This document shows, piece after piece, positions 4,928-7,367 of a DNA stretch of 33,032 nucleotides. The DNA comes from an uncultured Erysipelotrichaceae bacterium (GTDB lineage Bacteria; Bacillota_I; Bacilli_A; RFN20; CAG-826). Made by a program: the position numbers and the translations under genes. Location: the NCBI GenBank assembly GCA_902791935.1, contig CADAXQ010000021.1:1-33032 (forward strand). Direction: 5' to 3'. The notes under the pieces were generated by a model. It was not told the DNA's origin. It was given only the letters and a program-made list of their open reading frames with translations, and ran no database searches. How positions within the stretch are numbered: position 1 is the stretch's first letter; each line of letters opens with the position of its first letter.

Positions 4928-5290
4928 ATGGCGCAACGTCAAGGTCGGATTAAAGCCCTCGTCACGAAAAACATCTCGGATATTCTGACGTTTGAGTTAA
5001 AGAACTCGAAAGTCGGGATGCCGTGCGTGAATCACGTCGAGATGAATCGCGATAATACTTTAGCCAAAGTCTACGTGACGTTCTTAGGTTCCAAGAATCC
5101 GCAAAAGAATCTCGAAGAGCTCGAACGTTGCAAAGGCTATGTCCGTTCGTCTTTGGCGAAGAAGATGGATACCTATAAAGTGCCAGATATCCGCTTCATC
5201 TACGACACGACTTATGATGACCAAGAACGCTTAGAAGCGGTCTTAGCCAAAGAAGAGGCCGAAATCGAAGCCACGAAAAAGAAGGACTAA
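4928..5290 (+). CDS. rbfA: Ribosome-binding factor A
   Basis: RbfA is a KH-fold protein that binds the 30S subunit during late 16S rRNA maturation. The 120-residue product shows the family features: N-terminal 'RIKALVTKNISDILTFELK' helix, 'AKVYVTFLG' strand (about 40-48), and 'VPDIRFIYDTTYDDQERLEAVL' at the end of the KH-like fold. Its ATG follows the infB TAG with no gap and has no separate ribosome binding site, so it likely depends on reinitiation. The ylxP gene that often separates infB and rbfA is absent. A terminator follows 11 bases after the stop. Confidence 0.93.
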   Translation: MAQRQGRIKALVTKNISDILTFELKNSKVGMPCVNHVEMNRDNTLAKVYVTFLGSKNPQKNLEELERCKGYVRSSLAKKMDTYKVPDIRFIYDTTYDDQERLEAVLAKEEAEIEATKKKD

Positions 5291-5301: not shown

Positions 5302-5325
5302 GCTCCCGTTATTGGGAGCTTTTTT
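5302..5325 (+). terminator. terminator of the rimP-rbfA operon
   Basis: GCTCCC (5302-5307), a six-base loop and GGGAGC (5314-5319) are followed by six T (5320-5325). The T-run overlaps the stop codon of the minus-strand gene that converges here. On the minus strand the hairpin has no T-run after it. Confidence 0.88.
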
Positions 5326-6484
5326 AGTCGACTTTTTTCTCGAAATGGGGGCTCGTTTGTCCCCAAGCCGTTTCGTTTTGGAAGCCAAGTGACAGGGCAA
5401 TGTCTTTCTTCACGCCAAGCAAAACAAAATGGGCTGGTTTCGTTTTCTTGGAAATCCGGGACATCCATTCTTGGAGAATGAGTTTTTGCGTTTTGGCACT
5501 TCCTTCTAAGGCAAAGAACTCAATCCGGTGTTTGCTCGTGAAACGATAGGCAAAAGCGCCAATCCGATGATGGTTTTGAAGCACTAAGAAATCTTGCTCG
5601 TCTTCTTTACGTTGACGGGTGGCAAACATCGTATTTCGCATATCTTCGGCGGTCAATAAAGGCCAATAAGAAATCGATGAATCGAGAATAGACTCATAAC
5701 ATGGGTGAATTCCAGCGAGGGATAAGTCGCCATTTTTCATTTTTTCACGGAAGTTCTTTAACAAAACGGGGCGTTCATTGGTCATCGATTGCAAGAATGT
5801 ATCGATTTTTTGATCTTCAGGACTAAGTGGCAATGGTGGGAAAAATAGTGAAGCGTCAACTTCATTTTCATTCTTCCATTGCTCAAATAAGGATTCAGGG
5901 CAGAATAAAAACGGACGAATCTTTTGCTTGCCACGAAATTTTTCTATGGGTTTTAGCAAGGGGCAATCCTTGTTCCATAGTTGTTTAAAGAAAGCAAAAT
6001 AGGCTTCGTCTAACGTAGAAAGAAGCAACAATTTGTTCCCATGGATTTCGTCGGATAGATAAGAAAATGCGGCGAGTTGTTCGAGATGTCGGCGTAACGA
6101 AGAAGAGAAACTAAGATCTTTCTCATGCGTTTTTAGGGAGGTCATAATATAGGCAGCAGGAACCGAGTGAACCGTAATTCCGAGCGCTTGGTACATCTCT
6201 AATTGGGAAGATGGCAATGGCTTGTCTTCTTCGAGATAGTAGTAGAAAAACGAAAGTTTCTTTTTCGCGTAGAGCGGGTAGCACGTTAATGCATTGGCTA
6301 ACCAGTAGGAGCGAAGCGTTCCGTCTAACAAAACGACGATCTTGTCTCTATCTTGCAACAAAGAGAAGGACATATCTTCATCTCGCAACAAAGAAAGCGT
6401 GTGACGTAAGGCAAGAGAATTCATGCGTTTAGTGTAACGCAAAAAGGGGGTATGTCCCAAGAAAACGAATGGTTTTGAAGCCAT
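5324..6484 (-). CDS. Degenerate TtcA/TilS-like PP-loop protein fused to a GNAT-like domain
   Basis: No standard name applies. Residues 21-205 follow the pattern of TtcA-type tRNA 2-thiocytidine enzymes: a 'DRDKIVVLL' strand (45-53), SSSLRR (127-132) where TtcA has C-x-x-C-SRLRR, GNKLLLLSTLDEAYFAFF (149-166) where TtcA has NK-ALGHH-DD-LETL, and KQKIRPFLFCPE (186-197) where TtcA has the IRPL motif. The ATP-binding SGGxDS is replaced by LDGTLR (53-58) and the Cys pair is lost, so catalysis looks impossible. Residues 285-375 resemble a GNAT acetyltransferase core (strand FLVLQNHHRIGAFAY, strand RIEFFAL followed by a helix, then LGF at 366-368). The start is uncertain: M1 (6484) has AAGGA 11 bases upstream, while M21 (6424) aligns better with TtcA and sits just after a possible -10. 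The fold assignments are read by eye and the function is unknown. Confidence 0.6.
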   Translation of the reverse strand: MASKPFVFLGHTPFLRYTKRMNSLALRHTLSLLRDEDMSFSLLQDRDKIVVLLDGTLRSYWLANALTCYPLYAKKKLSFFYYYLEEDKPLPSSQLEMYQALGITVHSVPAAYIMTSLKTHEKDLSFSSSLRRHLEQLAAFSYLSDEIHGNKLLLLSTLDEAYFAFFKQLWNKDCPLLKPIEKFRGKQKIRPFLFCPESLFEQWKNENEVDASLFFPPLPLSPEDQKIDTFLQSMTNERPVLLKNFREKMKNGDLSLAGIHPCYESILDSSISYWPLLTAEDMRNTMFATRQRKEDEQDFLVLQNHHRIGAFAYRFTSKHRIEFFALEGSAKTQKLILQEWMSRISKKTKPAHFVLLGVKKDIALSLGFQNETAWGQTSPHFEKKVD

Positions 6485-6500
6485 GAAGGCGGTTTTCCTT

Positions 6501-6506
6501 TATAAT
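6501..6506 (+). promoter_or_regulatory. -10 box of truB, possibly leaderless
   Basis: TATAAT (6501-6506) lies 9 bases before the best truB ATG (6516), so the transcript would begin at or within a few bases of the start codon. No good -35 is visible (TTGAAG at 6475-6480 leaves a 20-base spacer). No Shine-Dalgarno sequence fits the ATG at 6516. Confidence 0.45.
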
Positions 6507-6515
6507 AAGCCTCGC

Positions 6516-7367
6516 ATGAAAGACGGAATTCTTTGTATCGATAAACCAGGCGGCATGACCTCTCGTCACGTGGACAATGTTCTGATGAAACGTTTTGGTC
6601 AAGCGAAGATTGGCCATTTTGGAACGTTAGATCCGTTCGCGACGGGCGTTTTGGTGATTGCCATCGGCAAAGGCACGAAGTTCTTGCCTTATTTAGATGA
6701 TGCGTGGAAATGTTATGAAGCCACGTTAGAACTCGGAATAGAAACATCTACAGGAGATCCCGAAGGAGATATGTTTCAAAAAGCAGAAGTCCCGTCTTTT
6801 TCAAACGAACAAATCCAAGCAACCATGAAATCCTTTCTTGGTGTGAGTGAGCAAATTCCTCCGATGACAAGCGCCATCAAAATCCATGGCGTGCCGCTTT
6901 ATAAAAAAGCCCATAAAGGGCAAGAAGTGGAACGTCAACCGCGCTCGATTACCGTCAAAGAAATGAAACTACTCTCCTATGAAAACCATACGTTACGTTT
7001 CTCTTGCACTGTCTCCAAAGGTACCTATATTCGAGTGCTTGGTATGGACCTTGCAAAACGGTTAGGAACCATTGGCTATTTAAGCGCGTTACGTCGTACG
7101 AAACTTGGGCCATTTTCCCTTTCTGACTGCCATCCGTTAGATACCGTAACAGAAAATGATGTCACGGATCCTTCTTGTTATCTTCAGGGCTATCCCATTT
7201 ATGAAGTGAAGCCCGAAGAGAAGAAAAGAATTATGGACGGGGCAAGCTTAACGTTGCCCTCTTTCCTCGGAGACAAAATCTTAGTCAAAGACGGTGAACA
7301 AGTATTAGCCGTTTATCGTTATGTCCCTGAAAAAGGCCGTTATGAAGCAGAACGGGGGCTTTTCTAA
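6516..7367 (+). CDS. truB: tRNA pseudouridine(55) synthase TruB
   Basis: TruB makes pseudouridine 55 in the T-loop of tRNA. The family start 'ILCIDKPGGMTS' is followed by KIGHFGTLDPFATGVL, which holds the catalytic Asp in GTLDP (about residue 39 of the 283-residue form), and by 'SAIKIHGVPLYKKAHKGQ' and 'KGTYIRVLGMDLA'. An ATG at 6483 would add 11 residues but overlaps the opposite-strand gene and is not needed by the family; 6516 is preferred. ribF follows after one base. The gene is cut off from rbfA by the inverted PP-loop gene, whereas in Bacillus truB follows rbfA directly. Confidence 0.93.
   Translation: MKDGILCIDKPGGMTSRHVDNVLMKRFGQAKIGHFGTLDPFATGVLVIAIGKGTKFLPYLDDAWKCYEATLELGIETSTGDPEGDMFQKAEVPSFSNEQIQATMKSFLGVSEQIPPMTSAIKIHGVPLYKKAHKGQEVERQPRSITVKEMKLLSYENHTLRFSCTVSKGTYIRVLGMDLAKRLGTIGYLSALRRTKLGPFSLSDCHPLDTVTENDVTDPSCYLQGYPIYEVKPEEKKRIMDGASLTLPSFLGDKILVKDGEQVLAVYRYVPEKGRYEAERGLF

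Follow-up and report, generated by a model that had tools for sequence, protein, structure and literature searches.

The closest described relatives of the gene analyzed here are tRNA thiolases of the TtcA superfamily. In TtcA, the Fe–S cysteines are necessary for activity, and the family's ATP site is the PP-loop (PMC5372739, PMC6082896). Dead subunits of this superfamily are already known from eukaryotes, where CTU2/Ncs2 of the U34 thiolase retains the TtcA-superfamily fold after loss of the Fe–S cysteines and is kept together with an active homologue (PMC10067955). Among open-access papers, neither a dead TtcA from a bacterium nor a TtcA fused to a GNAT domain was found described.

A gene combining these two features was identified in a 33,032-nucleotide stretch (the window) from an uncultured Erysipelotrichaceae bacterium (genome G000; other genomes are likewise denoted by G numbers). 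The gene is single copy in its own genome when searched with itself as the query, and it resides in the retained gene order infB-rbfA-gene-truB-ribF. Because homologues begin at residue 21 of the open reading frame, translation probably starts at the ATG at 6424, and residues are numbered from this codon (366 aa). The locus comprises the following features.

5324-6484, minus strand: open reading frame of 386 codons (386 aa) between rbfA and truB
5327..6424, minus strand: predicted dead TtcA-GNAT pseudoenzyme, 366 aa; the frame extends to 6484 with an upstream ATG
5714..6424, minus strand: TtcA-type PP-loop domain, residues 1-237 (VIA Z 16.5-20.6 to TilS, TtuA, and NcsA)
4928..5290, plus strand: rbfA, convergent neighbor, assigned by gene order and sequence
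5302..5319, plus strand: terminator-like stem-loop in the interval between rbfA and the dead gene, from a consensus scan only
6483..7367, plus strand: truB, divergent neighbor, with a probable start at 6516

Adjacency to rbfA is kept in G016, G033, and G108, and truB likewise adjoins the orthologue in G016 and G108.

Scans of Pfam, NCBIfam, and PDB sequences with the window protein alone gave no significant match, so its kinship with TtcA is visible only via its relatives. Homologues were retrieved at E ≤ 1e-3 from 42 of 61 related genomes; the named relatives of one intact homologue are metagenome-assembled genomes of Bacilli, mostly from the rumen. The TtcA model NF007972 recognizes the intact homologues (E 1e-44 to 1e-54, with its curated cut-off), as does the PP-loop Pfam family. 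Columns 11-241 of the family's own profile match E. coli TtcA (about 226 columns, E 4.9e-37), and the profile also aligns to the structures of TtuA, NcsA, and TilS. Most homologues carry intact SGGKDS, CSICSRMKK, HH..DDA, and distal Cys motifs, followed by a C-terminal domain in register with that of the window protein. An AlphaFold2 model of the window protein, built with 28 homologues (pLDDT 85, pTM 0.73), was superposed by VIA-align on TilS over residues 3-258 (Z 20) and on TtuA/NcsA over residues 1-237 (Z 17), which identifies the PP-loop/HUP fold of the TtcA-TtuA-TilS group. The window gene is an orthologue, at the same locus, of genes encoding intact TtcA-type proteins.

The original prediction had recognized TtcA/TilS-type landmarks in linear order, and each of these falls in the anticipated column of a genuine TtcA alignment: DKI in the conserved (D/E)(K/R)I strand, LDGTLRS at SGGKDS(L), SFSSSLRR at CSICSRMKK, GNK at CNK, LSTLDEA at AHHxDDA, and KIRPF at FIRPL. 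This agreement far exceeds chance. The proposed pairing of a dead TtcA-like domain with a GNAT-like half is upheld by structure prediction, which displays both folds, and the alignment of homologues does reach TtcA. Four segments of the N-terminal domain correspond to catalytic or cluster-binding motifs of the live relatives.

6308..6325, minus strand: former PP-loop, residues 34-39, DGTLRS where live relatives have SGGKDS
6089..6115, minus strand: former CxxC Fe–S motif, residues 104-112, LSFSSSLRR where live relatives have CSICSRMKK, with a short gap before it
6014..6019, minus strand: former HH, now ST, residues 136-137, from the alignment of genus members
5837..5839, minus strand: former third conserved Cys, now Pro, residue 196 (Cys in 27/27 live genus members)

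The SGGKDS columns are invariant across the 27 live members of the genus, and 93 columns of the N-terminal domain are conserved in at least 85% of them, of which the window protein keeps 33. Retained residues include the structural R7, L10, D17, Y49, K55, R170, and P171, which no dead copy in the genus has lost. Gone are the CxxC, the HH, the third Cys, and all of SGGKDS except one Gly and the Ser. In place of the SGGxDS loop of a thiolase stands LDGTLRS, and the three cysteines of a [4Fe-4S] site (CxxC plus the distal Cys) are replaced by L, S, and P. Alignment with live relatives therefore confirms what had been read from the single sequence, namely LDGTLR for SGGxDS and a lost Cys pair. Judged from its sequence, the window copy is a derived pseudoenzyme devoid of any known catalytic or Fe–S residue.

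Among 124 family members examined, 114 have an intact SGGKDS. Wholesale motif loss was observed in G000, G016, G026, G034, and G036, and also in G108, a member of another genus with the identical order infB-rbfA-dead gene-truB-ribF; G033 shows only the C-terminal part of the gene because its contig ends there. The remaining exceptions are single-residue changes in G044 and G054 and a truncated sequence in G106. The two changed PP-loops, SYGKDS at L171 (G044) and SGGKES at L042 (G054), belong to otherwise conserved relatives and could reflect either incipient loss or mistakes in assembly. Whether LDGTLR is conserved among homologues had been raised as a point to check, and it is not: the dead lineages carry different replacements of the PP-loop. 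Within the genus, the infB tree favors two origins of the dead state, with a log-likelihood 17.5 better than for one, but the AU test does not reject a single origin (p 0.145). The gene's own tree groups the dead copies together, but long branches meet there.

The C-terminal half adopts the GNAT fold, as described by two features.

5327..5707, minus strand: GNAT-like domain, residues 240-366, lacking the QxxGxG/A acetyl-CoA loop (VIA Z about 12.5 to RimL)
5489..5527, minus strand: β4/α3 junction, residues 300-312, with a two-residue turn instead of the pyrophosphate loop

DSSP assigns a strand to residues 300-307 and a helix to residues 310-327 of the model, and the turn between them would leave no space for a pyrophosphate loop. 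No Q/RxxGxG/A motif is present, and conservation of acetyl-CoA-binding residues, which had likewise been raised as a point to check, fails beyond this protein: the loop is missing from the whole genus, including members with a live thiolase half, so its loss preceded that of the PP-loop. The C-terminal domain of homologues from other genera in the order is unmistakably a GNAT, with Acetyltransf_1/7/10 matches (best 8e-15, to Acetyltransf_10), and the live-looking GNATs carry QxxGxG, RKQGYG-type acetyl-CoA loops. Throughout the order, this TtcA type normally occurs as the fusion; its thiolase half is mostly live, and its GNAT half looks live in several genera. Members of this TtcA type from outside the order mostly have no fused domain and measure about 245-280 aa. 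Given that live relatives in the genus and other genera share the GNAT half and outsiders mostly do not, the fusion looks ancestral in the order. The predicted novelty of the architecture stands insofar as no description was found in the open-access literature, but not as a peculiarity of the window protein. Two genomes outside the order (L240:408-1616 and L241:551-1798) encode a TtcA joined to a differing GNAT with Acetyltransf_1/3 matches, perhaps an independent origin of such a fusion.

The window's genome encodes a second, unfused TtcA, referred to here as type B.

G000:C33:5555-6406: type-B TtcA, the live homologue in the same genome

Type B of G000, G026, G034, G036, and G108 has SGGKDS, CxxC, and all other motifs intact. 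Contamination as its source in G000 is unsupported, given GC contents of 0.44 vs 0.47 and related type-B genes in four genus mates. On the G000 contig (L083:4408-6520), type B lies directly after and overlaps a gene for a NifS-like cysteine desulfurase, plausibly its dedicated sulfur donor. Among 279 genomes of the order, 182 hold the fused type, 75 hold type B, and only 7 hold both (Fisher p 3e-33 for exclusion, with genomes counted as independent and kinship ignored). The fused copy is dead in five of the seven double holders, including one from another genus in which the synteny is unchanged; in the other two (G087 and G209), whose genomes carry 4-5% contamination, it is live. Among the examined fused genes without type B, only that of G016 (with its close relative G033) is wholesale dead. 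Phylogenetically, the fused type and type B are distant TtcA types rather than recent duplicates. The type B of G000 lies apart from those of G026, G034, and G036, which suggests separate acquisitions, and that of G108 falls between (support 90/92). By visual inspection alone, a further type-B TtcA (L134:333-1490, G269) carries an N-terminal extension that is rhodanese-like.

To compare evolutionary rates, branch lengths were fitted on a fixed infB topology, scaled to InfB, and contrasted between dead and live branches. The catalytic half evolves 9.1 times faster on dead branches and the GNAT half 2.1 times, with factors of about 10 and 1.5 in the window's lineage and about 8 and 3 in G026/G034, where both halves are accelerated; all of these factors are rough, given dS values close to saturation in most pairs and saturation of the longest dead branches. 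In the dead pair G000-G016, dN_C/dN_N is 0.77 (95% 0.57-1.08) vs 1.9-3.7 in five live pairs. Constraint is therefore reversed in the window's lineage, with no less conservation in the GNAT half than in the PP-loop half, but not in G026/G034.

The explanation we tentatively prefer, at somewhat less than an even chance, is that a vertically inherited fused TtcA-GNAT thiolase became a pseudoenzyme after type B took over thiolation and was kept for a non-catalytic role. Type B would have assumed thiolation, probably s2C32, whereupon selection on the old active site of the fused TtcA would have ended and a second, non-catalytic role would have preserved the protein. Such displacement is less certain for G016 and G033, both of the dead lineage, since type B was sought but not found in these genomes (91% and 68% complete, respectively).

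An unlikely alternative holds that the gene is a functionless, slowly eroding relic whose frame is open by chance. Loss of the motifs seems recurrent, the catalytic half is strongly accelerated, and the window protein evolves fast, with only about 52% identity to its G033 counterpart despite 97% identity in InfB. Substitution patterns in two dead pairs speak against erosion: pS is 0.70 vs a pN of 0.33 in G000-G033 (95% range of the difference 0.26-0.50) and 0.74 vs 0.24 in G026-G034, and a pN so far below pS indicates purifying selection on the dead gene. Under neutral drift over the same time, 8-16 in-frame stops would be expected, but none was seen, and the frame stays open in G108 and in each of the four complete dead copies from the genus. 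The PP-fold residues listed above likewise survive in every dead genus copy. In-frame stops first flagged in homologues fall outside the true frames, which ruled out a pseudogene with stops. With an open frame, kept synteny, and pN far below pS, the dead gene is not a pseudogene.

Alternatively, the dead protein would be the non-catalytic partner of type B, analogous to CTU2/Ncs2 in its heterodimer with CTU1/Ncs6, and would help to orient the tRNA. Dead fused copies occur alongside live type B in five genomes of two genera, and CTU2, modeled with the same fold despite lacking the Fe–S cysteines, is required for thiolation (PMC10067955). G156 reaches this pattern from type B instead, pairing a second kind of dead TtcA, a dead type B (L150, G156:C165:4015-4812; LTSANKSSL and no CxxC) with a live one (L138, G156:C136). 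We nevertheless regard a partnership of this kind as rather improbable: type B was not found in G016, the two types are distant relatives, and the half that would supply the shared-fold interface, the PP-loop half, is under weaker constraint than the GNAT half in the window's lineage. There is only a slight chance that a remodeled PP-loop pocket or GNAT cleft has given the protein another catalytic activity. An h-D-G-[TS]-x-x-S loop is common to G000, G026, and G034, and ST replaces HH in G000, G016, and G034, which might point to a new site. G016, G036, and G108 are different, however, the alignment reveals no new invariant polar cluster, and the acetyl-CoA loop is absent. Continued thiolation through non-canonical residues is very improbable; the kept fold and the failure to find type B in G016 are the only points in its favor, and the required Fe–S cysteines and the family-defining PP-loop are all gone (PMC5372739, PMC6082896).

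Under the preferred reading, in which a displaced thiolase persists in a non-catalytic role, the dead fused protein has probably become a helper or scaffold without enzymatic activity. The GNAT-like half would mainly carry this role in the window's lineage, and the dead PP-loop domain would act as a fold or as a scaffold facing RNA. Most likely the protein would bind tRNA or a partner in the translation machinery, which would make it an adaptor or chaperone-like factor. Of the two functions originally envisaged, modifier or adaptor, an acetyl-transferring modifier is unlikely because the acetyl-CoA loop was lost genus-wide, and we favor the adaptor. It is possible, if on balance doubtful, that displaced TtcA-GNAT enzymes repeatedly became doubly dead proteins under selection, acting in translation as tRNA binders or as CTU2-like partners of the incoming TtcA. 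If this scenario is correct, gene displacement can yield a pseudoenzyme instead of gene loss, and the order would provide a natural series, with up to three occurrences, of a tRNA-modifying enzyme losing catalysis on replacement and surviving under selection. Catalytic and non-catalytic roles of tRNA-modifying enzymes would then be separable, with a bacterial parallel to CTU1/CTU2. In some genera, TtcA-GNAT looks active in both halves by its motifs and may make a novel tRNA or protein modification.

Compared with E. coli TtcA (b1344; NF007972, tRNA cytidine(32) 2-sulfurtransferase), the window protein shares the N-terminal order and fold but lacks the catalytic and cluster residues and possesses a GNAT-like C-terminal domain missing from the E. 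coli enzyme; its live orthologues resemble TtcA in SGGKDS, CxxC, the third Cys, and HH..DD. Type B of the same genome belongs to the same PP-loop thiolase family with intact motifs but represents a separate lineage with no GNAT domain. The C-terminal fold is shared with GNAT acetyltransferases such as RimL, and the order-level relatives are nearest to PRK10314 and Acetyltransf_10, but the window protein and the live members of its genus lack the acetyl-CoA loop of these enzymes. CTU2 is similar in fold, in the loss of the Fe–S cysteines, and in the retention of an active homologue. The difference is that CTU2 associates with CTU1 and arose with it by duplication of a common ancestor, whereas any complex of the window protein would be putative, its live homologue belongs to a different TtcA type, and it carries an attached GNAT-like domain. 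CTU1/CTU2, in which the homologue devoid of cluster cysteines supports the live one (PMC10067955), is the nearest precedent, but the failure to find type B in G016 and a PP-loop half that is only weakly constrained argue against a strict copy.
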